In this document: one piece after another, positions 1 to 61,466 of the stretch | Layout: every line of letters starts with the position of its first letter | Numbering within the stretch: position 1 is the stretch's first letter | Assembly: GCF_003865345.1 (NCBI RefSeq) | Contig: NZ_RMVE01000002.1 | Location: 186,001-250,000, forward strand | DNA length: 64,000 bases | Source: Nonlabens xiamenensis | Lineage (GTDB): Bacteria > Bacteroidota > Bacteroidia > Flavobacteriales > Flavobacteriaceae | Direction: 5' to 3' | The notes under the pieces: generated by a model | The model's input: the letters and a program-made list of their open reading frames with translations, nothing else | What the model was told of the DNA's origin: nothing | The model's database searches: none | Translations under genes and position numbers: made by a program

Positions 1-2666
1 CACTTATAAGACCAGGAAGTTCGCTAACAGAATCTATTGAAGTTTCCAAGAAAATAGAAACCATCCTATTAGAAAGTTTCCCTGAAATCAAGACGGTAAC
101 TGCTCGTATAGGTGTTGCAGATATTCCTACAGATCCTATGCCTATGGATATTGCAGATATGTACATTATCCTTAATAAGGATATGGACGAGTGGACAACA
201 GTTTCTACTAAAGAAGGTTTAATAGATGCTATAAGAGATAAACTGGATGATGAACTGGTGGGTGTGAATTTAGTTTTTACCCAACCGGTTGAATTGAGAT
301 TTAACGAGCTGTTAGAAGGCGTAAGAGAGGATATTGCTGTAAAGCTGTATGGCGAGGATTTAGAGGTTTTATCAGAAAAAGTTCAGGAAATGGCGGCTAT
401 TATACAAACCGTTCCTGGCGCTGGCGATGTAAGTGCAGAACGTACTGCTGGATTACCACAGATGACCGTAAAATATAGGCGTGATAAAATGGCGCAATAC
501 GGACTGAATATTCAAAAAGTAAATGATTACGTAAGTACCGCTTTTGCTGGAGGAACCGCTGGAGTCATCTTTGAAGGCGAAAAGCGATTTGATCTTGTTG
601 TACGATTTGATGAAAGTCATAGAAAAAGTATTGATGACCTGCGCAATATGTATATTGATCTTAAGGATGGTAGTCAGGTGCCCATTATCGAAATAGCCGA
701 GATTGAATATGTCCCTGGACCTATGCAAATCTCACGTGACAATACGTATAGAAGAACGTATGTAGGTGTAAATGCCCGAGGCAGAGATGTAGAATCTGTC
801 GTTAAGGATATTCAACAAAAACTGGATGAAGAATTGGACTTACCATCAGGATATTATATTACCTATGGTGGAGAGTTTGAAAACCTTCAAAGCGCAAAGG
901 ATCGTTTGATAATCGTTGTGCCCATCGCCCTGTTTTTAATCTTAATACTGCTATACTTTGCGTTAAAATCCTTTTCACAATCTTTAATGATTTACATCGC
1001 GATTCCTTTGGCAGCCATAGGTGGTGTATTTGCTTTATGGCTGCGCGGTATGCCATTTAGTATCTCGGCAGGTGTAGGATTTATTGTGCTATTTGGTGTC
1101 GCAGTTCTTAACGGTTTGGTACTTATTAATCGGTTTAATTCTCTTAAAGAAGAAGGCGTTATAAGCATAAAGGATAGAATATTTCAAGGGACTAAAGAAC
1201 GTATTCGCCCTATTATGCTCACGGCCACTACAGATATTTTTGGCTTTTTACCAATGGCATTTTCCACATCGGCTGGTGCAGAGGTACAACAGCCACTTGC
1301 GACGGTGGTTATAGGTGGTATGCTCACGGCAACGCTGCTTACATTAATCGTTCTTCCCGTACTTTATACATTTATAGAAAAGAGACGTGAGCGCAAAGAT
1401 CAGAACAAGATTGGTTCTTTTAATCCGCAAGCGTTAACTACGATTTTAATAGTTGGTTTTATGTTAGGTGGCACCGCTTTCGCGAAAGCGCAACAACCAC
1501 AAGCACCTGTGCAAGACATTGTTGTCCAGGATAGTATCATACCCATCGCAATTTCACAAGCCATAGAAATTGCCAAAGAGAATTATCCTGTGCTGAAAGC
1601 GAGCCAACTCGAAATCGAAAGACAGAACGCACTTAAGGGCATTGCTTACGACTTCGGTAATACCCAAGTTTTTACTGGCGGAGAAGAGATTGCAGATGGT
1701 CAAGGCATTTATACCGTGATAGGCATCGGGCAACAGAATATTGATCTATTAGGCATAGGAGTCAAAAGACGTTTGCAACAAAAACGTATCGAGTTGGCAC
1801 AAACTGGATTTAACCTTTCTGAAATTCAGATAGAACTGGAAGTCAAAAGAGCGTGGTCAGAAACATTTCAAGCAAAAAAGAAGTTCTTTTTGTACCGTGA
1901 ATTGGATAGCATTTATGGTCAATTTTCAAAATCTGTAGAACTTAATTACGAAGTCGAAGCTATATCACGGTTGGAATATGCCGCCGCGCGTAATCAGGCC
2001 TTGCAAATCAACAACAAATTTCAGCAGGCAGAAATTGATTATTTCATCGCGTTACAAAAACTCAATCTTTGGTTAACACCAGATACGATGTACACCGTAA
2101 CTGATGATTTGGAAGTTGCCGAAATTTCGATTTTGGATGCCGATGATACATTAGATGAACATCCCGATTTATTGCTTTCGCGAAAGCGTATAGATGAAGC
2201 ACAAGCAAGCTACGACGCAGCTAGAGCAAACTTATTACCCAAGTTCAATCTGCAAGGTGGATTGCAACGTGTTAATGGCGATAGTGGTTTTTATACCTAT
2301 CAAGCTGGAATTTCAATTCCGTTATTTTCTGGTCCAGACCGCAGTCGAGCAAAGACTGCAAAACTGGATACACAGATAGCAGAAACAAATGCCACTTTCA
2401 AACAACGAGAGTTGCAATCACAATTCATACAGGCACGGCAAAATTTTACAAAGTGGCGAGACACGTGGTTTTTCTATAAAACCGAAGCCCTGCCACTTGC
2501 CATAGACCAGCGCAAAGGCGCATTGCTCGCTTACAAGGAAGGAGCACTGACTTATGCCGCATTCACGCAAATCATACGCGATGCCATCCAAACAGAATTG
2601 GATGCGCTGGACGCACTCGGTAATTATTTAGATGCCTTGTTTGAACTACAATATTTTCAAAACTAA
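1..2666 (+). CDS. czcA: CzcA/CusA-type heavy-metal RND pump fused to a TolC-like outer-membrane channel (5' partial)
   Basis: The reading frame is open from the left edge, so the start lies outside the window; the first internal Met is at 138. The N-terminal half is the second half of an inner-membrane RND pump: it has the CzcA-typical stretch GVADIPTDPMPMDIADMY, periplasmic docking and porter segments, then a block of membrane helices near 910-1380 with the GVGFIVLFGVAVLNG segment. After a charged linker comes a signal-peptide-like hydrophobic stretch (about 1434-1490), then about 390 residues of alpha-helical TolC-family channel. Such CzcA-TolC fusions are known in Bacteroidota. The pump would export divalent metal (Zn, Co, Cd) or Cu(I) with the adaptor encoded 4 bp downstream. 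A 14-bp palindrome encodes AFAKA exactly at the hydrophobic junction, and a second copy lies in the channel part. Family is certain; the metal is inferred. Confidence 0.93.
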   Translation, partial: LIRPGSSLTESIEVSKKIETILLESFPEIKTVTARIGVADIPTDPMPMDIADMYIILNKDMDEWTTVSTKEGLIDAIRDKLDDELVGVNLVFTQPVELRFNELLEGVREDIAVKLYGEDLEVLSEKVQEMAAIIQTVPGAGDVSAERTAGLPQMTVKYRRDKMAQYGLNIQKVNDYVSTAFAGGTAGVIFEGEKRFDLVVRFDESHRKSIDDLRNMYIDLKDGSQVPIIEIAEIEYVPGPMQISRDNTYRRTYVGVNARGRDVESVVKDIQQKLDEELDLPSGYYITYGGEFENLQSAKDRLIIVVPIALFLILILLYFALKSFSQSLMIYIAIPLAAIGGVFALWLRGMPFSISAGVGFIVLFGVAVLNGLVLINRFNSLKEEGVISIKDRIFQGTKERIRPIMLTATTDIFGFLPMAFSTSAGAEVQQPLATVVIGGMLTATLLTLIVLPVLYTFIEKRRERKDQNKIGSFNPQALTTILIVGFMLGGTAFAKAQQPQAPVQDIVVQDSIIPIAISQAIEIAKENYPVLKASQLEIERQNALKGIAYDFGNTQVFTGGEEIADGQGIYTVIGIGQQNIDLLGIGVKRRLQQKRIELAQTGFNLSEIQIELEVKRAWSETFQAKKKFFLYRELDSIYGQFSKSVELNYEVEAISRLEYAAARNQALQINNKFQQAEIDYFIALQKLNLWLTPDTMYTVTDDLEVAEISILDADDTLDEHPDLLLSRKRIDEAQASYDAARANLLPKFNLQGGLQRVNGDSGFYTYQAGISIPLFSGPDRSRAKTAKLDTQIAETNATFKQRELQSQFIQARQNFTKWRDTWFFYKTEALPLAIDQRKGALLAYKEGALTYAAFTQIIRDAIQTELDALDALGNYLDALFELQYFQN
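1476..1489. repeat. Palindrome GCTTTCGCGAAAGC
   Basis: Exact copy in czcA-tolC, read as AFAKA at the hydrophobic junction between pump and channel. Confidence 0.95.
2174..2187. repeat. Palindrome GCTTTCGCGAAAGC
   Basis: Exact copy in the TolC-like part of the fusion, read as LSRKR. Confidence 0.95.
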
Positions 2667-2670
2667 AAAG

Positions 2671-3864: not shown

Positions 3865-3880
3865 AAGATACAAGATTAGA

Positions 3881-4294
3881 ATGACTGAAATAGAAAAAAC
3901 ATTAAACGATCACGAAGTGCGTCCTACAGCTATGCGCATCTTGATTTACAAGCATCTAGCACAAAAAGATAATGCTCAAGCTTTACTGGATATAGAAACC
4001 GCTTTCGCGAAAGCGGAACGATCTACCATTTTTAGAACATTAAAGACTTTCGAAGAAAACGGTATTGTACACCAAATAGAAGACGGAACAGGAATCACAA
4101 AATACGCATTGTGTGAACCAGGTTGCAATTGCGAGATAGATCAAGACTTACACTTGCATTTTCATTGCAGTAATTGTGACGAAACTGTTTGCTTGACAGA
4201 ACATAAAATACCACATATCAATATACCAGAAGGCTACGTGGCAGAAGATGTCAATCTTGTCGTAAAGGGTATTTGCGAAAAATGTAGTGGCTGA
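3881..4294 (+). CDS. Fur-family metal-responsive transcriptional regulator
   Basis: A 137-residue Fur/Zur/PerR-type repressor. The N-terminal winged helix includes RPTAMRILIYKHL and the recognition region ERSTIFRTLKTFEENGIV. The C-terminal dimerisation domain has the His-rich metal site HLHFHCSNCDETVCL with a CxxC pair, and a second CxxC (CEKC) at the end, as in Fur proteins with a structural zinc. It follows the adaptor gene by 16 bp and so probably controls this metal cluster. A palindrome copy encodes AFAKA just before the recognition helix, in a loop where relatives have other residues. Which metal it senses is not visible. Confidence 0.93.
   Translation: MTEIEKTLNDHEVRPTAMRILIYKHLAQKDNAQALLDIETAFAKAERSTIFRTLKTFEENGIVHQIEDGTGITKYALCEPGCNCEIDQDLHLHFHCSNCDETVCLTEHKIPHINIPEGYVAEDVNLVVKGICEKCSG
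4001..4014. repeat. Palindrome GCTTTCGCGAAAGC
   Basis: Exact copy in the Fur-family gene, read as AFAKA; flanks extend the dyad to CCGCTTTCGCGAAAGCGG. Confidence 0.95.
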
Positions 4295-4360
4295 CTTTGC
4301 ATAGCAGTTGTACAAACAATTTGATAACTTGCAACAGTAAAAAATATCAAATTTCTCAAA

Positions 4361-4717: not shown

Positions 4718-4726
4718 GTCGAATAA

Positions 4727-5092: not shown

Positions 5093-5097
5093 ATAAA

Positions 5098-7062
5098 ATG
5101 AAAAAACAAAAACAAAATTTAAGGGATATAAATCCCAAAGAACATCAAGGCGAACACAGCCACGATGATGGACACGATCACGATCACGGAGATGGTAGTT
5201 CATTTAAAACATACATTCCTGCGATAATTAGTTTTGTAATGCTAATTGTAGGTATTGCCGTAGACTATTTTAATGCTATTCCAGCATTTGAAGGTTGGGT
5301 ACGTATTGTCTGGTATACTATTGCTTATTTACCTGTAGGTTTTCCAGTTATTAAAGAAGGTTGGAAAAGTATTATGCGTGGCGATGTCTTCACAGAATTT
5401 TTCTTAATGTCTATTGCCACCTTGGGTGCATTTGCGATTGGAGAATATCCAGAAGGGGTAGCCGTAATGCTGTTTTATGCTGTGGGCGAACTCTTCCAGA
5501 ATGCGGCTGTTAACCGTGCAAAAGGAAATATAAAAGCCCTACTCGATGTAAGACCAAATGAGGCATTAGTTTATCGTGATGGCGATTATGTTTCAGTAAA
5601 TCCCGAGACAGTTGAAATTGGCGAAAAGATACAAGTGCGTGTGGGCGAAAAAGTCCCACTAGATGGTATTCTGCTTTCTGAAAAGGGATCTTTTAATACT
5701 GCGGCCTTGACAGGTGAAAGCAAGCCTGATACAATTGCTAAAGGCGATAGTGTTTTTGCTGGAAGTATTAATCTCGAAGGAGTTATTGAAGTTGAAACAA
5801 CAAAAGAATTTAAGGACAGTTCCATTGCACGTATTCTCGATATGGTGCAAAACGCAACGGCTAGAAAATCAAAAACGGAATTGTTCATTAGAAAATTTGC
5901 GCGGATTTATACGCCTATCGTTGTATTCCTTGCCATCGGCCTGACGTTTCTTCCTTACTTTGTTGTAGATGATTATGTGTTTAGAGATTGGTTATATCGT
6001 GCATTGATATTCCTCGTGATTTCGTGTCCTTGTGCTTTGGTTATCTCGATACCGCTAGGTTATTTCGGTGGTTTGGGAGCTGCTTCACGTAATGGTATTC
6101 TTTTTAAGGGTGCGTCCTTTCTCGATGCAATGACTCAAGTTAATACCGTAGTGATGGATAAGACGGGAACGGTCACTAAAGCGGTATTTAAGATTAAAGA
6201 AATTGTTACTGGTTCCGCTTTCGCGAAAGCAGAATTTATGAAATACCTAATGGCAATGGAAGAGCAATCCACGCATCCAATAGCAATAGCCATTATGGAA
6301 TATAAAGCTGAAGGAGCAGATTATAATGCTACAGACGTTTCTGAAATTGCAGGTAAAGGTTTGAAAGGTAGTGTAAATGGAAAAACAGTCTTAGTTGGGA
6401 ACAAAGCATTGATGACAGCACATCAGATAGAAGTTCCAGCAGAAACAGACAACATTGTTGAGTCTATAGTGATGGTAGGCATAGATGGCGCATTTGCAGG
6501 TTATGTAACAATCGCCGATGAATTGAAAGACGATGCGCATCAAGCGATCAAAGAAATAAGGGCGGCAGGAATCGATAAGATTATTATGCTTTCTGGAGAT
6601 AAGGATTCTATCACTCAAGAAGTAGCAAAAGAATTAGGCATCGACTGGGCAAAAGGTGGAATGCTTCCAGAAGACAAACTCAATGAGGTGGAAAAATTAA
6701 AACAGCAACCAGATACTAAGGTGGCTTTTATAGGTGATGGTATTAATGATGCGCCTGTACTTGCGGCTAGTGATGTAGGAATCGCGATGGGCGGTCTTGG
6801 TAGCGATGTGGCTATTGAAACCGCAGATGTTATTATACAAACAGATCAACCCAGTAAAATCTCAAGAGCGATAAAAATAGGCCGTTCTACACGTCGGGTT
6901 GTTTGGCAAAATATCATACTTGCCTTTGGCGTGAAAGTTATTGTATTAATATTAGGCGCTGGTGGTCTCGCCACAATGTGGGAAGCAGTCTTTGCAGATG
7001 TAGGTGTAGCATTGCTGGCTATTCTCAATGCTGTTCGATTGCAGAAAATGAAGTGGGAATAG
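5098..7062 (+). CDS. Heavy-metal-translocating P1B-type ATPase (Zn/Cd/Pb type)
   Basis: A 654-residue inner-membrane metal exporter. Key motifs are TGES (residues 205-208, actuator domain), the CPC metal site in a membrane helix (310-312), the phosphorylated Asp in DKTGT (D354), and GDGINDAP in the P-domain. It lacks a cysteine-type N-terminal metal domain. Instead, residues 16-32 are rich in His and Asp, a likely metal-binding tail. The CPC motif with this subfamily's layout favours Zn, Cd or Pb over Cu, but this is inference. A palindrome copy encodes AFAKA at 374-378, just after the phosphorylation site region. It is the last gene of the metal cluster, 5 bp after DUF3703. Confidence 0.94.
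   Translation: MKKQKQNLRDINPKEHQGEHSHDDGHDHDHGDGSSFKTYIPAIISFVMLIVGIAVDYFNAIPAFEGWVRIVWYTIAYLPVGFPVIKEGWKSIMRGDVFTEFFLMSIATLGAFAIGEYPEGVAVMLFYAVGELFQNAAVNRAKGNIKALLDVRPNEALVYRDGDYVSVNPETVEIGEKIQVRVGEKVPLDGILLSEKGSFNTAALTGESKPDTIAKGDSVFAGSINLEGVIEVETTKEFKDSSIARILDMVQNATARKSKTELFIRKFARIYTPIVVFLAIGLTFLPYFVVDDYVFRDWLYRALIFLVISCPCALVISIPLGYFGGLGAASRNGILFKGASFLDAMTQVNTVVMDKTGTVTKAVFKIKEIVTGSAFAKAEFMKYLMAMEEQSTHPIAIAIMEYKAEGADYNATDVSEIAGKGLKGSVNGKTVLVGNKALMTAHQIEVPAETDNIVESIVMVGIDGAFAGYVTIADELKDDAHQAIKEIRAAGIDKIIMLSGDKDSITQEVAKELGIDWAKGGMLPEDKLNEVEKLKQQPDTKVAFIGDGINDAPVLAASDVGIAMGGLGSDVAIETADVIIQTDQPSKISRAIKIGRSTRRVVWQNIILAFGVKVIVLILGAGGLATMWEAVFADVGVALLAILNAVRLQKMKWE
6217..6230. repeat. Palindrome GCTTTCGCGAAAGC
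   Basis: Exact copy in the P-type ATPase gene, read as AFAKA. Confidence 0.95.
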
Positions 7063-8501: not shown

Positions 8502-9200
8502 ATGGAAGTCAACTACATCCAGCACCTCAACGCAGTTTTCAAAGCATTTCAAGAAGACAGCCGGTTAAACCCAACACACATCAGCTTATATCTCGCGTTG
8601 TTCCAATTGTGGAATCACCATCGCTTTCGCGAAAGCTTTCACGTAAACCGTGAGGATGTGATGAAGATATCAAAGATTGGATCCAAATCAACATATCATC
8701 GATGTGTCAAGGAATTGAATCACTATAATTATTTGGTTTACAATCCGTCGCACAATCCGTTCAAAGGGTCTAAAATTAAGATGCTCAAATTTGGGACAAC
8801 CTCTGGACAAGTATTGGAACAAGCTGTGTACCAAGGTGTCCCAAATCAAGGACAAGAAGTGGTACGTTCTAATAAACATATACAAACTAATCAAAACAGT
8901 TATAAACTACCCAAGCCTAAAAATGAAATTGAAGTTCTACAATTTTTTAAAAAAGAAGAGTGGCCAGAAGTCGAAGCGCAAAAATTCTTCAATCACTACC
9001 AATCCATCGGCTGGAAAATTGGCGGGAAAATTAAAATTGAGAATTGGCACGCTTCCGCGAAAAATTGGATGCTAAAAGCCGAAGAACTCAAACAAGAAAA
9101 ACATAAAAACGAGCTGTCCCAAAACGCTGCCCTGAGCTTGTCGAAGGGTCAGGACAACCTGCATACCACTCGGAACAAGAATTATAATAAACCGTTATGA
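8502..9200 (+). CDS. Element-encoded replication-initiator/DnaD-like protein (unassigned)
   Basis: A 232-residue protein common in Flavobacteriia mobile regions. The N-terminal third looks like a winged helix (ISLYLALFQLWNHHRF, then VNREDVMKISKIGSKSTYHRCVKEL). The C-terminal part contains FNHYQSIGWKIGGKIKIENW, resembling the DnaD-type C-terminal motif that contacts DNA. It overlaps the DnaC-like ATPase gene by 4 bp, a classic initiator/loader pairing. Two repeats sit inside the gene: the 14-bp palindrome (8623, read as RFRES) and a widespread intergenic-type repeat at 9130-9148 (read as ALSLSKG). The function is inferred from context and weak motifs. Confidence 0.68.
   Translation: MEVNYIQHLNAVFKAFQEDSRLNPTHISLYLALFQLWNHHRFRESFHVNREDVMKISKIGSKSTYHRCVKELNHYNYLVYNPSHNPFKGSKIKMLKFGTTSGQVLEQAVYQGVPNQGQEVVRSNKHIQTNQNSYKLPKPKNEIEVLQFFKKEEWPEVEAQKFFNHYQSIGWKIGGKIKIENWHASAKNWMLKAEELKQEKHKNELSQNAALSLSKGQDNLHTTRNKNYNKPL
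8623..8636. repeat. Palindrome GCTTTCGCGAAAGC
   Basis: Exact copy in the DnaD-like gene, read as RFRES. Confidence 0.95.
9130..9148. repeat. REP-like repeat embedded in coding sequence
   Basis: CCCTGAGCTTGTCGAAGGG is a hairpin-forming repeat that I recognise from intergenic regions of many bacteria, including Bacteroidota. Here it lies in frame near the 3' end of a gene, encoding LSLSKG. Confidence 0.6.
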
Positions 9201-13421: not shown

Positions 13422-13706
13422 TTACTTTTCATTCCTACTTAGACGGGAATCAGTTTTGCCTATATCCTCAGACTTTTCTTTTTTCGCTTTCGCGGAAGCG
13501 GAATCATCTGAAACTACTGCTTGACTTACAGCTGTGGCAACCGTGCCAGCGACGGTCATATAGGTTGCGACGGTTACAACAGCTGCAGGAAGTGCGATGG
13601 GAGCTGCGATAATGGCACCGCCAGCGGTGGCCAATGCGATACCTATATTTCTCAAAGTCTTGAAAAACTTCGGTGTTGGTTTTTTATAACGTTGTACAAG
13701 GTTCAT
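13422..13706 (-). CDS. Small Ala/Val-rich hydrophobic protein of the DUF5675 cassette
   Basis: A 94-residue protein. Residues 18-65 form one long or two short hydrophobic segments rich in Ala, Val, Gly and Thr; the tail (SAKAKKEKSEDIGKTDSRLSRNEK) is charged. It could be a membrane or holin-like protein. A one-mismatch copy of the 14-bp palindrome (13486) encodes part of the tail. It lies 4 bp after the DUF5675 gene in one transcript. Confidence 0.6.
   Translation of the reverse strand: MNLVQRYKKPTPKFFKTLRNIGIALATAGGAIIAAPIALPAAVVTVATYMTVAGTVATAVSQAVVSDDSASAKAKKEKSEDIGKTDSRLSRNEK
13486..13499. repeat. Palindrome, one-mismatch copy
   Basis: GCTTTCGCGGAAGC in the small hydrophobic protein gene of the DUF5675 cassette. 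Confidence 0.85.
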
Positions 13707-17373: not shown

Positions 17374-19221
17374 TCATACATTGAGCGCAAACTCCCTGAA
17401 TACCTGCTTGTGCTTTTCCATGTCTAGGTCAGGTGAAAAAGAAGCCCGGACGATATAGTCCTTATCTTTTTCTTGAGTTGTTCCTTGGGTAGACGTGGCC
17501 GGTACGGTCCAATACACGCCTTTCAATTGTCCGTAGCTCACACAAAATTTACTTTCTTCCGGAATTTCTTCAATCATTGCGTGAATCAGCTGGAGATTAA
17601 GTTGGCGTTTTCTGGCCTCTCGTTCCTCTGGTGTCGCTCCTGAAGTCGGGAGATCCAACGAAAATACCGATGGTGTGAATCCGCGGGCAGCCAGTTCTTC
17701 TGAAACAAAGTTAATTTTAGCTTCTGGTAGGGTGTTCTTGATAAATTCCACAAACTCTCGTGTATGGAGATAAGCCTCTTTAATACGGTTCTTCATAGAA
17801 GGTAATTGCTCTGCCAGCAAATGATATTGTAAAGCTGTTGCCTCGTTATCGCATAGGATGAGATGCTGCTGGATCAATGGACCCAAGTCATCTGCTACCC
17901 GATTGACCATCGCATAACCTGCCGTGCATTTTCCGCCACTGGGGAATTTTGATCCACTGGCATAAGAAATGGCTTTGACGGCGGAAAGCAGCTCTCCCTC
18001 TTTCATGAATGCCACATTGGGACAAAATGTCTGGTCAAGTATGAACACCGGCTGCACAGCAGACTGTCCGCTTGCAGTGGTCCGCTTCTGGCGCAGCACA
18101 GATTCTAGTTCGCCTAGATCTGGTACCTCTACCCTTGGGTTTGTGGGTATCTCGGCGATGATAAAAGGCACCGCGTCATCCTGGGCCAACTGTTCTAAAA
18201 TACGACGCAAACCGCTGACCATATCGTTTTGTCCATCGACATGAAGATCTACGATCTCTACATGAGGTAAACAGGCAGCCACCCTCCTGGCCTGGTCATT
18301 GGTACCGCCATAACAGTTCGTCGGAACTATAAATTTTACGGGCTTGCCTTGGTGGGCGAGTTGAGCATGTTCAATCAGTCCCATCATGATCGCATACTGG
18401 ATGGATAGCCCGCTGGAACCTACCATGGGCTGGGTATCCACCTGCATTAAATCTTTCAGGTAGGTAAAAACCTCTTGCTTATCTGCTTCAAGTTGGTCGT
18501 GATCTTGTGCTGAAATTTGGGCACCGTTGATCATGGCATCCAGCAAATAAAAGGTGTCCTGAGGGGTCATCGCAATGGTTTCCCGTCTACGCACATGCTG
18601 AATGGCCGAAACATAGGCATCGGCATCTTTGTGGTATATACTGAGCACACTTCCTAAATCCCCACAAAAATCTATATAAAAATCCGCGGTGGGCTGCTCG
18701 ATGATGGTCATTGGATCACGCTTTCGCGAAAGCGAAACACTTATTCCATCAAAGCGGTCGTTTACTTCATCAGCGTCACCCACCAAGGTCTCAAAATCGT
18801 AACCATAAATGGACTTGATTCTTTCCTGGTCAAAAAAAGCTGGAACTTCTGCATCAAAAATTAACCTGGTTTTCTTTCCGTTCAGGTGATTGAAGCGTAG
18901 AATCGCCAAAATTGGTGCTGTTTGTGAAGCAAAAGAAATAACCTGCTCGGATGGAATACCTTTGATCTTGCCCAACGTCCATTCCAATACACTGGACAAT
19001 TGATGCCCTAACCTGATATAGTCATAAGCCGTCGGTAATTGACACAAAGACTCGGCTCCGGATTGACCCGCAGCAAATAAATCTTCAAATTGTTCCAAAA
19101 ACTCAGTCTTGGCCTTTGATTCATTATAAATGTCTAACCTATGTGTCGTGATGTCCAACCATCCTTGAGGTAGATTCTCTAATACTTCCTTTACAAATTT
19201 CAGTACACGTCTATCTTGCAT
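17374..19221 (-). CDS. PLP-dependent Cys/Met-metabolism-type enzyme with long N-terminal extension
   Basis: A 615-residue protein whose C-terminal 360 residues fit the Cys/Met metabolism PLP family (cystathionine synthase/lyase group): AEIPTNPRVEVPDL (356-369), the cofactor-contacting Asp in LDQTF (D396) and the likely Schiff-base Lys in SGSKFPSGG (K425). Family members are usually near 400 residues; here about 250 extra N-terminal residues precede the catalytic domain. The substrate is unknown. A palindrome copy (18720) encodes LSRKR in that extension. A plausible promoter box lies at 19240-19247. It may act in sulfur amino acid metabolism, but no neighbour supports a pathway. Confidence 0.8.
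   Translation of the reverse strand: MQDRRVLKFVKEVLENLPQGWLDITTHRLDIYNESKAKTEFLEQFEDLFAAGQSGAESLCQLPTAYDYIRLGHQLSSVLEWTLGKIKGIPSEQVISFASQTAPILAILRFNHLNGKKTRLIFDAEVPAFFDQERIKSIYGYDFETLVGDADEVNDRFDGISVSLSRKRDPMTIIEQPTADFYIDFCGDLGSVLSIYHKDADAYVSAIQHVRRRETIAMTPQDTFYLLDAMINGAQISAQDHDQLEADKQEVFTYLKDLMQVDTQPMVGSSGLSIQYAIMMGLIEHAQLAHQGKPVKFIVPTNCYGGTNDQARRVAACLPHVEIVDLHVDGQNDMVSGLRRILEQLAQDDAVPFIIAEIPTNPRVEVPDLGELESVLRQKRTTASGQSAVQPVFILDQTFCPNVAFMKEGELLSAVKAISYASGSKFPSGGKCTAGYAMVNRVADDLGPLIQQHLILCDNEATALQYHLLAEQLPSMKNRIKEAYLHTREFVEFIKNTLPEAKINFVSEELAARGFTPSVFSLDLPTSGATPEEREARKRQLNLQLIHAMIEEIPEESKFCVSYGQLKGVYWTVPATSTQGTTQEKDKDYIVRASFSPDLDMEKHKQVFREFALNV
18720..18733. repeat. Palindrome GCTTTCGCGAAAGC
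   Basis: Exact copy in the PLP-enzyme gene, read on the minus strand as LSRKR. Confidence 0.95.
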
Positions 19222-21119: not shown

Positions 21120-22079
21120 TTACTGCCTATCCCACAACTCCCAGTGTTTTTGAAAATCAGAAGACTGGGGAAGATTGGTTTTTGCCTTGTCCACTACTTT
21201 AAGCCATTTTAATTGTTGCGGACTCAAATACTGCTTGGCAGATTTACCTTGTCCCAAGGCTGTATTCATTTTGGTACGTTGTACTACAGACAGTGGCAAA
21301 CGGGCGTAGTCGGTGCGTCGCAAATAATAATCTTCATCTTGTTGCGCAGCTTTAAAAGAACCTTCAGGCACCGCTTTCATACTTTTTTGTTGAGCAAACT
21401 TATCCAAAGTCAATTTGTTGGTCATTTGGGTGTCATAGGTAACCCGTACTACCTCGCTACCACCTGAGAAACCAGCTTCTGTTTGAAGAACGCCTTTTTG
21501 GCTGCCCAGCTCCTTCTCTCCTGTCCAAAAACAATACATCTGATAGGTGGCTTGTTCGGTGTTTCCCAAGGCGCCAATTTCCTGACCTAGCAGCTCAAAA
21601 TACAGGGGAATATTGCGCTTTTGTTGTTCCAATACCTGGCGCATTGCCTGATAAAGACCTCGGGCGGTATAATTTCCTGCTACACGCTGAATCAATGGCT
21701 TACCCTGTGGATCTACAATTTGTACGACAGGGTTGTTCCATGCGCTTTCGCGAAAGCGTTCCAACACCTCCCGATCAGCACCACCTCTGTTATTATAAAT
21801 CGCCAAGGGTATGAATTCATTTTCAATCGCCTCAGTCATTAACGGATGACTCAACACATCTTTTCCATAATTTTTACAGGTGGAACATCCGGGAACTTCC
21901 TGAAACAATATCAGTATGGGTTTACCGGTGGCAGCTGATTCTTGCAGCGCTACCTCATAATTTCTCCACCAGGATACCCTACCCAATTCTTCAGGTTGTT
22001 TATACGGCTCCGTTCGGGTCTGTCCTACAGCGGAAGTAACAGTGATCAAGCCTACTAGCAGTACCAAATAATATCTCAT
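21120..22079 (-). CDS. Secreted thioredoxin-like protein with MsrA-like C-terminal domain
   Basis: I start this gene at the ATG at 22079, which gives a clear signal peptide (YYLVLLVGLITVTSAVGQ); the longer frame from 22130 would place charged residues before it. Residues of about 30-150 form a thioredoxin-type fold with a VPGCSTCKNYG Cys pair. About residues 175-230 resemble methionine sulfoxide reductase A: YCFWTGE retains the Cys of the GCFW active site, followed by GVLQTEAGFSGG and VVRVTYDT. Together they would make a periplasmic reductase that carries its own thiol supply. The MsrA part is short and divergent, so activity is uncertain. A palindrome copy at 21744 encodes RFRES. Confidence 0.78.
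   Translation of the reverse strand: MRYYLVLLVGLITVTSAVGQTRTEPYKQPEELGRVSWWRNYEVALQESAATGKPILILFQEVPGCSTCKNYGKDVLSHPLMTEAIENEFIPLAIYNNRGGADREVLERFRESAWNNPVVQIVDPQGKPLIQRVAGNYTARGLYQAMRQVLEQQKRNIPLYFELLGQEIGALGNTEQATYQMYCFWTGEKELGSQKGVLQTEAGFSGGSEVVRVTYDTQMTNKLTLDKFAQQKSMKAVPEGSFKAAQQDEDYYLRRTDYARLPLSVVQRTKMNTALGQGKSAKQYLSPQQLKWLKVVDKAKTNLPQSSDFQKHWELWDRQ
21744..21757. repeat. Palindrome GCTTTCGCGAAAGC
   Basis: Exact copy in the thioredoxin-MsrA-like gene, read as RFRES. Confidence 0.95.
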
Positions 22080-22387
22080 AGCCTTTGATTTGAATACTAA
22101 AATATGGCATGAATATCCCATAAAGTTCACAGCGAAATATCTATTGGTTGATATTTAGAGCCCGGTTGGAATTTGCAATGGTCCATTTAACCATTTGCTC
22201 GCCGCTATGATCTTGTCGGTGATTGGTTTTTCTCCTCATGGAATCTATCCTGCACCCAATATGGCAATTCTCCATTTTTTGTATCAGCCGTACTGTGCCT
22301 GATGTTCTTTGAAGAAATGCCTACGATAAAATGAACAAGGCCTGCAACATGTGCTGTGGAAGCATAATTTTATCTCGACTGAGCTTT
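22080..22387. other. Gene-free interval
   Basis: About 300 bp between two minus-strand genes. I see no gene, repeat or clear terminator in it. Confidence 0.4.
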
Positions 22388-35966: not shown

Positions 35967-37241
35967 TTGATACGTTCCCTTATATTATTCTTAATTTGTT
36001 CTTCCTGGATCTATGCCCAGGATATGGTATCGCCTACACCACTTCAACAAGCGATTAAAACAGAGAGTTCGCTGATCAAAGACCAACTGATCAGTTTGCG
36101 CCGCGACCTTCACCAGCATCCCGAAATAGCCGGAAATGAAAAACGAACCTCTGCGGTGATCAGCAAATTATTGAATGACTTGGGTTTAGAAGTTCATGAG
36201 GCTGTAGGTGGATATGGTGTAGTGGGCATCCTAAAAACTGATAAACCAGGAAAACATATTGCATGGCGAGCTGATATAGATGCATTAAGCACCAACTTAG
36301 AAGAGGATCCGGCGGACTTTAAATCGGTGAATAAAGGAGTGCGCCATATTTGTGGTCATGACGTACATACGACCATTGCCCTAGGTATTGCTCATAGTCT
36401 GACCCAGCTCAAAGCGCAACTTTCTGGAACGTATTATTTTGTTTTTCAACCCGCCGAGGAGAATATCACTGGCGCCAAAGCGATGTTGGACGACGGACTC
36501 TTGGACTTGATCCAACCGGACGAATTCTTTGCCTTGCATATGACTCCTTTCCCCACTGGAATAGTAGCTACAAAACCAGGCGAACTGTACGCTCATTACA
36601 AAAAAGTTGTCGTACGCCTTGATACCCAAGATCCAAAGATTATTGACGCCGTTAAGGAGCAAATGCGCACGCTGACTACAGTAAAAGATACCATGTTTGG
36701 CAAGGATAGTTCTTTCGAGGATCCGATCAAAGGTATCGTGGGTACTGAAAGTATTTACCAGAAGTATAGCTTTCGCGAAAGCGATATTTGGGCACAACAA
36801 GAGGGAGAACAAACTATTTTACACACCTATTATAGTTTTAGTGACGATGCGGCACTATCCGACGCTGGTCTACAGCTCCAAAACCTATTTGACCATGAGG
36901 AACTGAGTACTTATATCAAGAGCTGCGATTTTGAGCCTGTTTCCTATGTATTAAAAAATCATCCCGAAACCACGAGAGCGGCCCTAGAGACCCTCCAACA
37001 ACAATTTCCGCAACAAACTCTCGAGCTTAGCGGTGTCTTTCCAGGTGGCCGCAGTGATGATTTTGCTCTTTTTTTAGACAAAGTACCTGGCACTTACTTT
37101 TTTGTGGGAGCTACGGATGTTGAAAAAAACATTATTGCCATGCCTCATGCACCATTTTTTCAAGTTGATGAAAAAGTGATCGGGCAAAGTGTGGAAATTT
37201 TTGGCTGGCTGATGGCCAAACGTGCCAGATCTCCACGCTAA
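35967..37241 (+). CDS. Exported M20-family amidohydrolase/peptidase
   Basis: A 424-residue metallo-hydrolase of the M20 (hippurate/IAA-amino-acid hydrolase) type. Metal and substrate motifs are RRDLHQHPEIAGNE, AWRADIDAL, HICGHDVHT and FQPAEENITGAKAML. The only start giving a signal peptide (LILFLICSSWIYAQ) is a TTG at 35967; the nearest ATG, five bases upstream, is out of frame. The enzyme would act in the periplasm on N-acyl amino acids or small peptides. A palindrome copy at 36769 encodes SFRES. Confidence 0.88.
   Translation: MIRSLILFLICSSWIYAQDMVSPTPLQQAIKTESSLIKDQLISLRRDLHQHPEIAGNEKRTSAVISKLLNDLGLEVHEAVGGYGVVGILKTDKPGKHIAWRADIDALSTNLEEDPADFKSVNKGVRHICGHDVHTTIALGIAHSLTQLKAQLSGTYYFVFQPAEENITGAKAMLDDGLLDLIQPDEFFALHMTPFPTGIVATKPGELYAHYKKVVVRLDTQDPKIIDAVKEQMRTLTTVKDTMFGKDSSFEDPIKGIVGTESIYQKYSFRESDIWAQQEGEQTILHTYYSFSDDAALSDAGLQLQNLFDHEELSTYIKSCDFEPVSYVLKNHPETTRAALETLQQQFPQQTLELSGVFPGGRSDDFALFLDKVPGTYFFVGATDVEKNIIAMPHAPFFQVDEKVIGQSVEIFGWLMAKRARSPR
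36769..36782. repeat. Palindrome GCTTTCGCGAAAGC
   Basis: Exact copy in the M20 amidohydrolase gene, read as SFRES. Confidence 0.95.
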
Positions 37242-42846: not shown

Positions 42847-42899
42847 ATTTGATCTCATTCTAAGGCTTTCTATTGTTCAATCATGGCAGGTGGTATATC

Positions 42900-42913
42900 G
42901 CTTTCGCGAAAGC
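42900..42913. repeat. Palindrome GCTTTCGCGAAAGC
   Basis: Exact copy, the only one between genes, in the gap between dnaB and the gene at 41584-42846. Confidence 0.95.
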
Positions 42914-44547: not shown

Positions 44548-44553
44548 AGGAAG

Positions 44554-44561
44554 CAAAAGTA
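44554..44561 (-). promoter_or_regulatory. -7 box very close to the dnaB start
   Basis: TACTTTTG on the minus strand ends 6 bp before the dnaB ATG, which would place the transcript start at or near the start codon. The rest of the interval to 44832 shows no gene. Confidence 0.4.
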
Positions 44562-45942: not shown

Positions 45943-46866
45943 CTACTCTTTCTCCAATTCACTTTGCGATTTTTTTCGACGTCTGTTTTTTAAAATACCA
46001 TTGGTAAGTATGACCGTCAGTATAACTCCGGCACCCACATAAAACTGAGGCGTCATTTGTTCGACATCTCCCAGAATCAAAAAAGCCAGAATAATTCCGT
46101 AGACCGGCTCAAGGTTGATGGTAAGCATGACAGTGTAGGCACTCAAAAATTTCATGACTTTAACACTGGCAATAAATGCATAAGCCGTGCAAACCGAGGC
46201 CAGCACGCCTAACCAAACCCAGTCCATCACCAACAATTTTGCCGGCAGCACAAACTCACCTGGTTGAAACAAAAAGTAGATACTGAGCAAGCCTACACCG
46301 CCCAATAGTTCGTAGAAAGAAATCACTGAGGGAGGGTGTGCTTTGGCCCAACTTACATTCATGATGGAAAATATTGCACTGAGCAATGCACTGACCAGTC
46401 CTAAAATCATTCCCATCAGGTAATCGCCCTCTACATGAAAAATATAGTAAAGCGCTGCAATGATTACCAACCCAAAAATCAGTTCATAACCCACGAATTT
46501 TTTAGGGGTAAATAACGGCTCGAGAACCGCCGTAAAAAAGGCTCCGGTACTCATCATGGCCAGGGTGATAGAAACATTGGACACCTTAATGGCGCCAAAA
46601 AAGGTTACCCAATGTAAGGCGATGACAAACCCTGCCAATACAAAAGAAAGTATGCGCTTTCGCGAAAGCGATACATCCCGCTTAGGTCCAATAGGAATGG
46701 CTTTCCATTTTAAATACAACAGAATCAGCACCACCGCCATGGACATGCGCCACCAAACGAGTGGAACGGATCCAATACTGATTAAGGCTCCCAACACTGC
46801 GGTAAAACCCCAAATAAATACTATAAAATGTAAGTGTAGATAATTGAGTAGTCTATCGTCTCGCAT
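45943..46866 (-). CDS. EamA/DMT-family transporter
   Basis: A 307-residue inner-membrane protein with about ten helices in two EamA halves (LHFIVFIWGFTAVLGALIS in the first; GLVSALLSAIFSIMNVSWAK starting the second; LEPVYGIILAFLILGD near the end). It belongs to the drug/metabolite transporter superfamily; substrate unknown. It overlaps the LptF/LptG gene by 14 bp, and that gene overlaps tgt, so the three form one operon. A palindrome copy at 46656 encodes LSRKR. Confidence 0.9.
   Translation of the reverse strand: MRDDRLLNYLHLHFIVFIWGFTAVLGALISIGSVPLVWWRMSMAVVLILLYLKWKAIPIGPKRDVSLSRKRILSFVLAGFVIALHWVTFFGAIKVSNVSITLAMMSTGAFFTAVLEPLFTPKKFVGYELIFGLVIIAALYYIFHVEGDYLMGMILGLVSALLSAIFSIMNVSWAKAHPPSVISFYELLGGVGLLSIYFLFQPGEFVLPAKLLVMDWVWLGVLASVCTAYAFIASVKVMKFLSAYTVMLTINLEPVYGIILAFLILGDVEQMTPQFYVGAGVILTVILTNGILKNRRRKKSQSELEKE
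46656..46669. repeat. Palindrome GCTTTCGCGAAAGC
   Basis: Exact copy in the EamA-transporter gene, read as LSRKR. Confidence 0.95.
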
Positions 46867-52776: not shown

Positions 52777-53541
52777 ATGAAATATTACATTTTTTTGGTT
52801 GTTGTGGTATTCGCTTTCGCGAAAGCGACACCTCAAGGACCCCCCATCACCAGCGATAAACCTATCATGCTGGGCGGGAAAAGCTTTACTGCCAAAACCT
52901 TAACAGAAATAAGAAATACCGAACGTGGAACCTCAGTATATGTTCCAGTGATGCTACACTACCTACCAACTTCAAACAGTCTTGTTGCGCTGCACCTACC
53001 CTATATAAGTTATGATTTATCTGATAACCAGGGTAATGCACTGGCAGACATCAAGCTGCTGGGCAAGTATCAATTCTATCGCAAAGATGGAACTGGTAAA
53101 ACTTTTCGTATGGTAGCCAAGACGCTACAGAGTTTGCCTACAGGAAAAGAATTGGATCTGATGGAACTAAGTACTGGCAAGTATGCTGGCTATTACGGTG
53201 TGGTTGCTGGATTGGAAACGCTTAAATACGGAATTTCATCTGAAATCGGCTATAACCATATGCCAGACGGCACATTGGACGAGTTACGTACAAAGCTAGG
53301 GTTTGGACTACCGTTGCTCAAGCCGCAATACCCTAACAAACAAATCAACCTTTATTTTGAATATACCAGTTCATGGTTGCACGAGCGCAACTGGTATCAA
53401 TTACTTTATGCTCAAGGTATTCAATACGCTCGGAAAAATATAACGTTTGACTTGGCTTTGCAATTACCTTTGGTACAGGATATTCCTGTGACCAGAGCAT
53501 TAAACTATTCCGTTTTTCTGGGCACACGGTACACTTTTTAA
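52777..53541 (+). CDS. Outer-membrane beta-barrel-like protein of the metal operon
   Basis: A 254-residue exported protein. Signal peptide IFLVVVVFAFAKATPQG, whose end is formed by a copy of the 14-bp palindrome. The mature part is strand-rich (ERGTSVYVPVMLHYLPTSN, LVALHLPYISYDL, LGKYQFYRKDGTGK, YEYTS-like segments) and ends LGTRYTF, with a terminal Phe, as in barrel proteins of the MetA/phenol-degradation type. It would sit in the outer membrane between the HYC_CC_PP gene (64 bp away) and the HMA-domain gene (42 bp). No named family assigned. Confidence 0.7.
   Translation: MKYYIFLVVVVFAFAKATPQGPPITSDKPIMLGGKSFTAKTLTEIRNTERGTSVYVPVMLHYLPTSNSLVALHLPYISYDLSDNQGNALADIKLLGKYQFYRKDGTGKTFRMVAKTLQSLPTGKELDLMELSTGKYAGYYGVVAGLETLKYGISSEIGYNHMPDGTLDELRTKLGFGLPLLKPQYPNKQINLYFEYTSSWLHERNWYQLLYAQGIQYARKNITFDLALQLPLVQDIPVTRALNYSVFLGTRYTF
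52813..52826. repeat. Palindrome GCTTTCGCGAAAGC
   Basis: Exact copy at the end of the signal peptide of the operon's barrel protein, read as AFAKA. Confidence 0.95.
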
Positions 53542-53583
53542 AAATATAGAAATTGCCCTCATTATTCATTTGAAATCAATATC

Positions 53584-54213
53584 ATGAAAAATATAATCAT
53601 TTTAATTACCATAGCTATAGGATTGACCGCTTTCGCGAAAGCGGACGCACAAAACAATAATCTAGACCACTTTGAAATCCAGGTAGACGGATTAGGCTGC
53701 CCTTTTTGTGCCTACGGACTCGAAAAGAAATTCAAGGAATTTAAAGGCATCAAAAATGTCGAAATTCAAATCGAATCTGGAGACTTCTCCTTTGATTACC
53801 CCAGTGAAAAAAACCTAAAAATGGAAGCTGTATTAACCCAGGTAGAAAAGGCGGGTTACACCCCTAATGAAGCGACAATCACCAGAGCTGACGGATCTGT
53901 AGAAACTAACGCCGTTGATAAAGCCATGGTCAATAAAGACAATTTGGCCCATTCGACGCTTTTTGTCAATGGTAAATGTGGTATGTGTAAAGCACGTATA
54001 GAAAAAGCTGTCAGCGATCTTCCAGGTGTACAACAAGTATCTTGGGATGTGGACAGCAAGATGTTGAAAGTTACACATGATGCCGATGTGACAAGTGAAA
54101 AGCAAGTAGCTGCCGCTACCGCTAATGTTGGACACGATACCAAAACTGTCCGTGCAGATGAGTCGGTATACGATGCACTTCCTGCTTGTTGTCATTATAA
54201 AAGAACCAAGTAA
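53584..54213 (+). CDS. Exported protein with two heavy-metal-associated domains
   Basis: A 209-residue protein with a signal peptide (IILITIAIGLTAFAKADAQ, again containing a palindrome copy). Residues of about 28-90 form an HMA domain with metal site LGCPFC, and about 120-185 form a second HMA with KCGMC. The C-terminus carries a further Cys pair (LPACCHYKR). Both CxxC sites are of the soft-metal type (Cu(I), Hg(II), Ag(I)). It would be a periplasmic metal carrier. Its stop overlaps the start of the next gene (TAATG). Confidence 0.88.
   Translation: MKNIIILITIAIGLTAFAKADAQNNNLDHFEIQVDGLGCPFCAYGLEKKFKEFKGIKNVEIQIESGDFSFDYPSEKNLKMEAVLTQVEKAGYTPNEATITRADGSVETNAVDKAMVNKDNLAHSTLFVNGKCGMCKARIEKAVSDLPGVQQVSWDVDSKMLKVTHDADVTSEKQVAAATANVGHDTKTVRADESVYDALPACCHYKRTK
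53629..53642. repeat. Palindrome GCTTTCGCGAAAGC
   Basis: Exact copy at the end of the signal peptide of the double-HMA protein, read as AFAKA. Confidence 0.95.
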
Positions 54214-55103: not shown

Positions 55104-55106
55104 AAG

Positions 55107-56336: not shown

Positions 56337-56341
56337 CTCAA

Positions 56342-57079: not shown

Positions 57080-57098
57080 TCAAATGACCGCAGCTTCA

Positions 57099-57899: not shown

Positions 57900-57919
57900 A
57901 TCGTCATTTTATTCTCCGA

Positions 57920-57927
57920 CAAAAATA
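57920..57927 (-). promoter_or_regulatory. -7 promoter box of the TauE/SafE gene
   Basis: TATTTTTG on the minus strand lies 20 bp upstream of the ATG. No TTG is visible at the usual -33 distance, which fits an activator-dependent promoter. Confidence 0.5.
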
Positions 57928-57948
57928 GATATACTAATTGATGCATTC

Positions 57949-57964
57949 TGTAACCAATGTTACA
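57949..57964. promoter_or_regulatory. Crp/Fnr-type operator upstream of the TauE/SafE promoter
   Basis: TGTAACCAATGTTACA is a perfect dyad with 6-bp arms and a 4-bp centre. It overlaps the stop codon of the Crp/Fnr gene and is centred about 43 bp upstream of the transcript start expected from the -7 box, the position used by activators of this family. I saw no second full copy in the window. Confidence 0.65.
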
Positions 57965-58586: not shown

Positions 58587-58591
58587 AATCC

Positions 58592-60346
58592 TTATTCTAG
58601 TTGTTCGATGGATTGATTTTTTTCTCGAACTTCAATTCTGGTTTTGGCAAGATAAAGTCCTTTTTCGAGATCTGCTATAAATGCTACCAATTGTTCTCTT
58701 AACTCACAGTGCAAGGCCCAAGTTGTACTCGCATCCTTACCAGAACATAGCGCTCTGATCTGAATGGTTTTTTCACCAGCCTCTACCACTTGAACCACAG
58801 GATCATGCTCCCCATCCCATAATTCGTTGTCCTTAAGAATGGTATGGAAATGATCCCGAACCTTTTCTACATCAATACGGTAATCGGCATGCACGATGAT
58901 TGGACGCACCTGATGCGCATTGGTCATCGACCAATTTTCAAATATATTGCTGATCACATATTTGAGCGGAACAACCAGGCGACGCTCATCCCAGGTACGT
59001 ACCACCATATAAGTAAATTTAATATCCTCAACATACCCCCAATCATCTTTAATGATCACCGTATCTCCTATTTTGGCTGGGCTTGTAATTGCAATTTGCA
59101 GTCCGGCAATAATATTACCCAGGGTACTCTGTGCAGCAATTCCCATCACTACTGTCAGGATTCCAGCCGATGCCAATAAAGAAATCCCCAATCGTTCTAG
59201 CGATTTGAATTGTGAGATAATGATCCCTATCCCGATGGAAATTACCACAAAGGTGACCACTCTTCTGGCTACAGAGACATAGGTCAACATTTGTCTTGCT
59301 TCACTATTTTCCTCGGGATTGGTGTCCCCTATTCTATTCTCGGCTACATAGATCATAAAACTGTCTATGAATTTAGACACCAACCAGGTGATGGAAATAA
59401 TCACCACTATCAATAAAAAGGAGTATAACCAGGTCGCTAGGGTACCACTAAAACTGATCAAGGTATTTAAGCTGATATAGAAAAACAAAACGCCGATGGT
59501 AAAACCAGCAGGACGGGAAAAGTTTTTGGCAATTACATTGAGCCAAACCAAGTCTGTGGCTTGACAAGCCTTGCGTACCAGCACAGCTCCTAATGCACCG
59601 ATTCCCCAAGCCAGGAAAATCAGAATAATGGTACCGAGCAATTTCCATAGAGGAATACCCCATATGGCAAATCTGGCCCATTCTGGCATCATACGATCCA
59701 GCTTGCGCGGGCCGTAAATGGCATACATTTCGTCAATATTTTCTACCGTATCTGCACTGATCAGCCAGAAAGCACCATAATCCTTGTGTTTAATACGCTG
59801 AAGTCTAAGGCTGGCATCCCGACCCTCCAGATCTACTTCACCAAAATAAACACTGCGCCTGGGTTCTCCCGCAATCGCCTTGTTGGTAGAGGTCTGTATA
59901 TCAATTTGACCGTCTGGCCTATCCGAGATGCTTCCCCAATCAATCGCCACGCGCTGGTTGATGACAAAATACAGTTTCTCGGCCAGGATGGCTGCCTCTT
60001 CCTTGTTCAGGGACAACGGCATCCTGTTAAAATTCAAGGCATAGCTGGCTGCTGCAAAATCACTATCCCGGGCAGAAAGCATGAAATGTTCGAGGGTGGC
60101 TTGTGGCGTCCTGAAATTGTATTCATTAGGTGGTAAACCAATGTTCTCATTGATCCTGGAGACAATGTAGTAGGATTCATTATACTCCTTGATAGGATTC
60201 ACCCCAAAATCACCATTCTGATTGACCGGTTTGGAACGTGGATGTTCCAATTGTGTGGTATCCTGCTGTTGTAATTCCGCTTTCGCGAAAAGCGACATGA
60301 GCAGCATACATAAGAAATAATAGGTCAGGTGTACCGATCGGTTCAT
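58592..60346 (-). CDS. Large MscS-family mechanosensitive channel
   Basis: A 584-residue channel. I use the ATG at 60346, which begins a signal peptide (HLTYYFLCMLLMSLFAKAELQ); the alternative ATG six codons earlier is possible. A long periplasmic region (about residues 25-200) precedes helices and the MscS core: ISLLASAGILTVVMGIAAQSTLGNIIAGLQIAI (in part, pore helix) and SPAKIGDTVIIKDDWGYVEDI in the beta domain. The last part is the vestibule domain. A 15-nt variant of the palindrome at 60279 lies in the signal peptide. It ends 5 bp before the Crp/Fnr gene. Confidence 0.9.
   Translation of the reverse strand: MNRSVHLTYYFLCMLLMSLFAKAELQQQDTTQLEHPRSKPVNQNGDFGVNPIKEYNESYYIVSRINENIGLPPNEYNFRTPQATLEHFMLSARDSDFAAASYALNFNRMPLSLNKEEAAILAEKLYFVINQRVAIDWGSISDRPDGQIDIQTSTNKAIAGEPRRSVYFGEVDLEGRDASLRLQRIKHKDYGAFWLISADTVENIDEMYAIYGPRKLDRMMPEWARFAIWGIPLWKLLGTIILIFLAWGIGALGAVLVRKACQATDLVWLNVIAKNFSRPAGFTIGVLFFYISLNTLISFSGTLATWLYSFLLIVVIISITWLVSKFIDSFMIYVAENRIGDTNPEENSEARQMLTYVSVARRVVTFVVISIGIGIIISQFKSLERLGISLLASAGILTVVMGIAAQSTLGNIIAGLQIAITSPAKIGDTVIIKDDWGYVEDIKFTYMVVRTWDERRLVVPLKYVISNIFENWSMTNAHQVRPIIVHADYRIDVEKVRDHFHTILKDNELWDGEHDPVVQVVEAGEKTIQIRALCSGKDASTTWALHCELREQLVAFIADLEKGLYLAKTRIEVREKNQSIEQLE
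60279..60293. repeat. Palindrome, copy with one inserted A
   Basis: GCTTTCGCGAAAAGC in the signal peptide of the large MscS protein, read on the minus strand as LFAKA. Confidence 0.85.
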
Positions 60347-60512
60347 AAAAAGGGCTTTTCTCAAAAATAAAGGATATGTCCGTGCATGATGCCCGGTTTG
60401 TCATAGCTTTAAGAATAATGCGTGCATGTTTTGGTTATTTTTAAACACAAGTTAATTTATTCCTAGCCATCTTTGATTTTGGCAAGAACAAACAAACTTT
60501 AAAAAGCACCCA

Positions 60513-61466
60513 ATGAAATACGCAACACTAGGAAACACCGAGATCAAGATCCCACCCATCGCTTTTGGCGGAAATGTCTTTGGCTGGACGGCCGATGAAA
60601 AAACCTCATTTGAATTGTTGGATTGGCTGCTGGATCACGGGTTTAATTACATGGATACCGCCAATGTGTACTCACGTTGGGTTGACGGGAATCAAGGCGG
60701 AGAAAGTGAAACAATCATCGGCAAATGGATGAAGGAACGAGGCGTAAGGGATCAGGTGACCATAGCTACAAAAGTGGGCATGGACGTTGGCCAAGGACAT
60801 ATAGATCTTTCTGCAAATCATATCAGAGAACAAATTGACCTCAGCCTGAAACGACTACAAACCGACTATGTAGATGTTTATTTTGCCCACAAATACGATG
60901 AGAACACCGAGTCCTTGGAAACGCTGGCTACCTTTGATGATTTGATACACCAGGGAAAGGTGCGTTGTTTGGGGGCCTCTAATTTTCCTTTGGCTCGCTT
61001 TCGCGAAAGCGAATCCATCGCTACCGACCAGGGCTTGAATAGATACGAGGTTTTTCAACCCGAATATAATTTGATGCGTCGTAACGAATTTGAAGACGAC
61101 CTGCAGCAGTATTGTCTAGAACAGAACATTGGGGTCACCAGTTATTTTACGCTGGCCAGTGGATTTCTTACTGGAAAATATGACGTAGAGGCAGACGCCA
61201 GCGGAAGAGCCCGGGAGTCTTATGTCTCTCAATTTTTCAATGATAAAGGGAAGCGTGTTCTCAACGCGCTGGAACAGATTGCTGCTCATCAAAATGTAAG
61301 TCAGGCCGCGGTAACTTTGGCCTGGACAATACAACAACCTGGCATCACTGCTCCTATTGCCAGTGCGACCAGCTTGGATCAACTGAAAGCCTTTCAAGAG
61401 GCAGTAGAATTAAACTTATCACCAGCGGAGTTAGAATCATTGCGCCAAGCCAGCAGAGTGGATTGA
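60513..61466 (+). CDS. Aldo/keto reductase
   Basis: A 317-residue NADPH-dependent reductase of the YajO/IolS type. Signatures are LGNTEIKIPPIAFGGNVFGW, the catalytic Asp/Tyr stretch FNYMDTANVYSRWVDGNQGG, KVGMDVGQGH for the active Lys, DYVDVYFAHKYDENT with the catalytic His and TLAWTIQQPGITAPIASATS for the cofactor. It reduces aldehydes or ketones, natural substrate unknown. It is a single gene. A palindrome copy at 60997 encodes RFRES. Confidence 0.94.
   Translation: MKYATLGNTEIKIPPIAFGGNVFGWTADEKTSFELLDWLLDHGFNYMDTANVYSRWVDGNQGGESETIIGKWMKERGVRDQVTIATKVGMDVGQGHIDLSANHIREQIDLSLKRLQTDYVDVYFAHKYDENTESLETLATFDDLIHQGKVRCLGASNFPLARFRESESIATDQGLNRYEVFQPEYNLMRRNEFEDDLQQYCLEQNIGVTSYFTLASGFLTGKYDVEADASGRARESYVSQFFNDKGKRVLNALEQIAAHQNVSQAAVTLAWTIQQPGITAPIASATSLDQLKAFQEAVELNLSPAELESLRQASRVD
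60997..61010. repeat. Palindrome GCTTTCGCGAAAGC
   Basis: Exact copy in the aldo/keto reductase gene, read as RFRES. Confidence 0.95.

Follow-up and report, generated by a model that had tools for sequence, protein, structure and literature searches.

A 14-bp palindrome, GCTTTCGCGAAAGC, recurs throughout the 64,000-nucleotide stretch of the Nonlabens xiamenensis genome analysed here (hereafter the window), and genomes of Nonlabens, Dokdonia and one or more further genera each contain several hundred copies of the same word. Alignment of homologous sites shows the palindrome to behave as a DNA-level signal that is conserved base by base. Something in these cells probably reads the word, which perhaps serves as a tag for recognising own DNA. 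The best reading we can offer, and one that we hold tentatively, is that of a self-recognition signal of the uptake type, which biased uptake and recombination have spread.

Abundance and distribution of the palindrome

The window holds 13 exact copies of the 14-mer between positions 1476 and 61010, where Markov models of orders 0-4 predict 0.0001-0.0005, and dinucleotide shuffles of the window gave a mean of 0.18 matches at up to two mismatches (maximum 2). The initial annotation had counted 13 exact and two one-change copies and had placed the number far above chance. The count was a fair one, with a single mismatch at 13486 and, at 60279, a near copy that scores as two mismatches when ungapped and amounts to a single-base insertion (GCTTTCGCGAAAAGC); the excess over chance is confirmed by the Markov expectation. 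By the list of open reading frames (ORFs), 12 of the 13 exact copies lie in long ORFs and the one at 42900 is intergenic, as had been claimed, and the description of copies in unrelated genes and three frames, free of strand bias, also stands. The copies are as follows.

1476..1489: exact copy in ORF 138-2666 (AcrB-type efflux and outer-membrane efflux domain); one mismatch in the homologous element of the motif-poor L054
2174..2187: exact copy in ORF 138-2666; the L054 counterpart is also exact
4001..4014: exact copy in ORF 3881-4294 (FUR family); the L054 counterpart has one mismatch
6217..6230: exact copy in ORF 5098-7062 (P-type ATPase)
8623..8636: exact copy in ORF 8502-9200 (no Pfam match), downstream of the RteC gene
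13486..13499: one-mismatch copy, GCTTTCGCGGAAGC; ORFs overlap on both strands and the host gene is ambiguous
18720..18733: exact copy in ORF 17374-19221 (no Pfam match)
21744..21757: exact copy in ORF 21120-22130 (thioredoxin-like)
36769..36782: exact copy in ORF 35967-37241 (peptidase M20)
42900..42913: exact copy, intergenic, with ORFs 41584-42858 and 43006-44556 on either side
46656..46669: exact copy in ORF 45943-46866 (EamA transporter)
52813..52826: exact copy in ORF 52777-53541 (no Pfam match)
53629..53642: exact copy in ORF 53584-54213 (HMA domain), close to the N-terminus
60279..60293: near copy with the one-base insertion, in ORF 58592-60364 (mechanosensitive channel)
60997..61010: exact copy in ORF 60513-61466 (aldo/keto reductase)

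Counts made genome-wide were likewise far above expectation. The 3.68-Mb genome from which the window derives carries 553 exact copies (632 at up to one mismatch) and none of the reversed control, and all 23 genomes searched within the genus, this one included, carry 288-857. A protein of the N. xiamenensis genome is matched at 85% in N. tegetincola (G414) and at 69% in two Dokdonia, in keeping with a placement in Nonlabens. Among 395 sampled genomes of the family, those rich in the motif are four of the same genus (553-664), one of g161 (408) and one of g175 (857), while the remaining 389 hold 0-19 copies each. Among 80 matches listed from named genomes, all stretches with at least two copies belong to Nonlabens, Dokdonia or strain BBFL7, with the exception of one from Aquimarina. 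In a phylum sample of 296 genomes, of which 266 lie outside the family, six of the latter had one copy and 260 had none.

No dispersed long palindrome of another sequence topped the word list in 40-kb samples from 20 motif-poor family genomes, whereas the present motif ranked first in all four samples of equal size from motif-rich genomes. Several of the 20 motif-poor samples carry other repeats, and one genome, G209 (L480-L481), has a separate dispersed word family, CGTCATTGCGAG / CTGTCATTCAGA, at 11-13 copies in 40 kb.

Conservation, anatomy and spacing

Exact copies were retained at homologous positions far more often than neighbouring 14-mers in the same aligned stretches, which were used as controls. 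At 95% identity 43/44 and 43/43 copies were kept (controls 59%), at 89% identity 23/29 and 22/23 (controls 24%), and at 74% identity 11/16, 11/12, 9/10, 9/11 and 9/9, i.e. 69-100% (controls 1-2.5%), the last comparisons excluding the more than half of sites (13/23 to 35/46) that fall in unaligned DNA. Six copies of G010 were not exact in G011, three through substitutions and three through gaps.

Two protein-coding loci illustrate this conservation. In a core enzyme, which we take to be 2-oxoglutarate dehydrogenase E1, the motif codons GCT TTC GCG AAA GC are unchanged in 9/9 Nonlabens genomes and are replaced by codons for different residues in 21/21 others, including the motif-rich Dokdonia, G182 and G196; the five codons align free of gaps in all 30, and seven of these show slight length variation immediately upstream. 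The peptide at this site is thus not conserved in distant homologues, an outcome that agrees with the initial view of the motif as something other than ordinary coding sequence. In a protein of about 2400 residues, the motif occupies the same place in the apparent signal peptide at 21 of 22 genus loci, and in the 22nd it lies in an extended form of the signal-peptide-like region. Taken together, the alignments show that homologous sites differ mainly by substitution, and that the constraint acts on the DNA word and goes beyond the needs of the peptide.

The anatomy of the site was derived from six stretches totalling 1.264 Mb, which also supplied the intergenic counts; as the G001 and G009 stretches are 95% identical, counts over the six are not all independent. 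The extended 16-mer, CGCTTTCGCGAAAGCG, is present there in 191 exact copies, with a further 52, 16 and 14 at one, two and three mismatches, against means of 0, 0, 0.2 and 4.5 for shuffled palindromes of the same composition. The 14-bp core is near-absolute, and the outermost C/G of the 16-mer, conserved at about 87-92%, accounts for 38 of the 52 single mismatches. Reading outward from the core, some 15 bp on each side are rich in A/C and poor in G (171 sites), a bias shared by intergenic sites and by coding sites, where it appears on both strands. An extended hairpin was considered and rejected: flank pairing at offsets 2-15 amounted to 4.74 pairs against 4.68 expected over all sites (intergenic 5.77 vs 5.21; coding 4.35 vs 4.57).

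Intergenic copies made up 59/229 (26%) in the six stretches, where about 10% of the DNA is intergenic by a crude gene caller, and the window alone underestimates this share. The 170 coding copies encode AFAKA (85), RFRES-type (53) or LSRK-type (32) peptides. At a few sites the centre of the motif is occupied by a small palindrome of the CCTGCCTGCCGGCAGGCAGG kind (G009 64168 and 54330, G001 64915 and 25030, G011 107894, and an element copy in G095); at G009 64168 it has CGCG on each side, which has the look of an insertion that duplicated 4 bp.

In most stretches the copies are distributed more regularly than chance would give. For the first 100 sites on contig C5 of the same genome, 0/99 gaps are shorter than 1.5 kb, against a mean of 21.7 under random placement, and their coefficient of variation (CV) is 0.56 as opposed to 0.99. 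Such short gaps were too few in G000 (0/64, a stretch that overlaps the first 100 C5 sites), G010 (2/36), G011 (0/22), G001 (4/45), G009 (4/44) and G182 (3/80). The CV of this G001 stretch was not significant, and the window, with 12 gaps, was not significant by either test; another G001 stretch had a CV of 0.92, with its closest pairs 223 and 270 bp apart. By eye, two long motif-free gaps of G001 resemble repeat-rich islands.

The motif in mobile elements and phages

Positions 1 to about 9200 of the window, together with contig C6 at about 172000-186000, form an element of the integrative/conjugative type that carries metal efflux genes and RteC. A motif pair 933 bp apart in this element recurs in relatives from several other genera, and in the element shared with the motif-poor L054, of three sites of the N. 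xiamenensis genome one is exact in the counterpart and two have a single mismatch there. Across elements in motif-poor hosts, 18/41 aligned sites were exact (control 14%) and nine of the remaining 23 were one or two changes off; in the reverse direction 18/23 element sites were exact in the N. xiamenensis genome (control 19%). These counts are not independent, since the same site was counted in up to six relatives. The simplest reading of the pattern is decay outside the system combined with recent transfer.

No exact copy is present in the combined 71 kb of a closely related pair of Nonlabens phages, which have no annotated integrase and would appear to be lytic. Among the viral contigs listed, seven that were inspected, putative phages of these hosts, carry 2-3 copies each, some alongside integrase-like genes recognised by eye.

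Candidate functions

Under our preferred reading, DNA uptake, which was among the roles suggested in the initial annotation, a putative sequence-specific reader, which would be a dimeric DNA-binding protein, takes CGCTTTCGCGAAAGCG as the mark of own DNA. The reading step would most likely occur as external DNA is taken up, before homologous recombination exchanges fragments without a copy for copy-bearing ones, and the uptake itself would proceed through pilus-independent machinery as described in Riemerella, with no type IV pilus. Biased uptake of this kind could create new copies out of near matches, keep each copy despite its redundancy and space copies at one per several kb; lytic phages would stay free of copies, and copies would decay in hosts that lack the system. 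In favour of this proposal we count the abundance and clade restriction of the word, the substitutions at the sites compared, the mismatch spectrum of the 16-mer, the conservation and spacing of the copies, the retention of only 18/41 element copies in motif-poor hosts as compared to 69-100% within the genus, and the over-representation of intergenic copies together with the absence of exact copies from the two phages.

The proposal has precedents. Uptake sequences are described as evolving by point mutation under biased uptake and recombination, and as under-represented in newly acquired segments and in coding sequence (PMC7811141), and the Haemophilus influenzae consensus has AT-rich flanks around its core as well as even spacing (PMC1939737); the core and A-rich flanks of the present word resemble it. 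Within the Bacteroidota, two articles describe R. columbina as favouring its own DNA (PMC7965970) and R. anatipestifer as competent despite a reported lack of pilus homologues, with a requirement for a DUF5689 protein among others (PMC8459023). In its full form, our proposal would make this the first palindromic uptake sequence and the first in Bacteroidota, a 16-bp word read in Nonlabens and Dokdonia via pilus-independent uptake and written hundreds of times by biased uptake; we put this forward with somewhat greater reserve.

Several results weigh against uptake. PMC1939737 describes known uptake sequences as non-palindromic, and reports that the even spacing in H. influenzae has also been taken to indicate replication, repair or compaction. 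The distance between copies is about 1 kb in H. influenzae and about 4-9 kb here. The integrative element of the N. xiamenensis genome has 10 copies in the roughly 22 kb alignable to relatives, more than expected for acquired DNA, and the longest gap among the first 100 C5 sites (170-188.5 kb) resembles ordinary genes by eye. A type IV-like pilus was rejected as the machinery: T2SSF (PF00482, the pilus platform) was matched in 85/395 family genomes, in no agreement with motif status, and in two of the four sampled genus genomes, with no match in G012 and G017, while G182 and G196 are outside the 85. DUF5689 was rejected as the specificity factor, as no alignment column separates the proteins of 16 motif-rich from those of 10 motif-poor genomes. 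The family is matched in all 26 of these genomes, and its motif-rich members do not form one clade in the tree; its distribution is compatible with uptake and does not discriminate.

The main rival is chromosome organisation, in which a clade-specific nucleoid or condensin-anchoring protein would bind the palindrome at intervals of a few kb and thereby shape or segregate the chromosome; a nucleoid-protein site had also been suggested in the initial annotation. This is a possibility to be taken seriously, albeit an unlikely one. The scarcity of gaps below 1.5 kb, the strong conservation of aligned sites, and the presence of copies on resident integrative DNA and some viral contigs all suit such a role, and a strict palindrome with A-rich flanks fits a dimeric binder. 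On the other hand, selection on any one of some 550 redundant sites would be weak, and still most of the aligned ones are kept. A second ParB/Noc protein was sought and rejected: HTH_ParB, the only binder family searched, gave one strong match in each of 26 genomes, motif-rich (12) and motif-poor (14) alike, with weaker second matches in 3/12 and 5/14, respectively.

A Chi-like self-mark of recombination or defence, by which a nuclease/helicase would spare or repair motif-bearing DNA, we regard as improbable. Known Chi sites are short and asymmetric and are read on one strand, quite unlike a 14-16 bp palindrome with a near-absolute core. The density of the word is nevertheless of the order of that of Chi in E. 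coli, and its occurrence on resident element DNA and some viral contigs, set beside its absence from the two related phages, would suit such a mark.

More doubtful still is a HIP1-like site tied to a DNA methyltransferase for an internal word such as TCGCGA. The likeness to HIP1, the highly iterated palindrome, was rightly drawn in the initial annotation, as our motif is also palindromic, dispersed and mainly genic, and alternate HIPs have been paired with cognate methyltransferases (PMC4390886). The accompanying idea of methylation at TCGCGA is weakened, since this hexamer occurs 146 times outside the 14-mer where a Markov model predicts 143.7. Of the two methyltransferase families searched, PF01555 was matched in 14/26 and PF00145 in 13/26 genomes, neither in all motif-rich ones; four of 16 motif-rich genomes match neither, namely G009, G010 and the Dokdonia records G416 and G425, the completeness of the latter two not being stated.

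A short repeat of selfish or mobile nature that loops tolerate, as also initially suggested, is very hard to sustain: although copies do lie in variable protein stretches, such as the apparent signal peptide described above, at the sites compared motif-less sequences align ungapped over the motif codons and differ from them by substitution rather than by the insertion expected of a REP- or MITE-type (repetitive extragenic palindrome or miniature inverted-repeat) element, and the word is conserved exactly across deep divergence.

Uptake sequences are best known in Pasteurellaceae and Neisseriaceae, and HIP1-type words in cyanobacteria. Like the uptake signal sequence (USS) of the former family and the DNA uptake sequence (DUS) of the latter, the present word occurs in hundreds of copies of point-mutation origin, is commoner between genes, is relatively evenly spaced and has a core with weaker AT-rich flanks; unlike them, it is a 16-bp palindrome with symmetric flanks, found in Bacteroidota with no motif-tracking pilus, and its role in uptake is putative. 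It shares with HIP1 (GCGATCGC) and alternate HIPs a highly iterated, mainly genic and clade-wide palindrome, yet spans 14-16 bp rather than 8, lacks TCGCGA enrichment beyond the full motif, and has carriers in which the two large methyltransferase families are unmatched. A strict 14-16 bp palindrome in the TTTC...GAAA style recalls parS and Noc-binding sites, from which it differs in its hundreds of mainly coding copies and in the lone strong ParB-type helix-turn-helix match that motif-poor genomes have as well. With Chi it has in common a genome-wide distribution at few-kb spacing, but it is palindromic, long and without strand orientation. We assign the word to neither uptake sequences nor HIP1, because the pilus family expected for the one does not track the motif and the methyltransferase link of the other is unproven. 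Within open-access text, where sequence in figures is unsearchable, no earlier account of the word was found, the 14-mer and 12-mer being unmatched and all ten matches being to the 10-mer alone.

How uptake sequences and HIP1-type words act and spread is debated (PMC1939737, PMC4390886, PMC7811141). A strict 14-16 bp palindrome that is exact at many orthologous places offers a clean system in culturable marine bacteria, in which it would become directly testable whether biased uptake alone maintains such words. The motif might also yield transformation tools for Nonlabens and Dokdonia, and may allow DNA to be traced back to passage through these hosts.

Two further features were noted. In G001, a cluster resembling a pilus or type II secretion system (L366:4177-13698; prepilin-like, ATPase-like and peptidase-like genes, by eye) adjoins duplicated large repeat-rich genes. 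The window also contains, at 31282-32248, a tandem array of seven near-identical units with a period of 147-148 bp.

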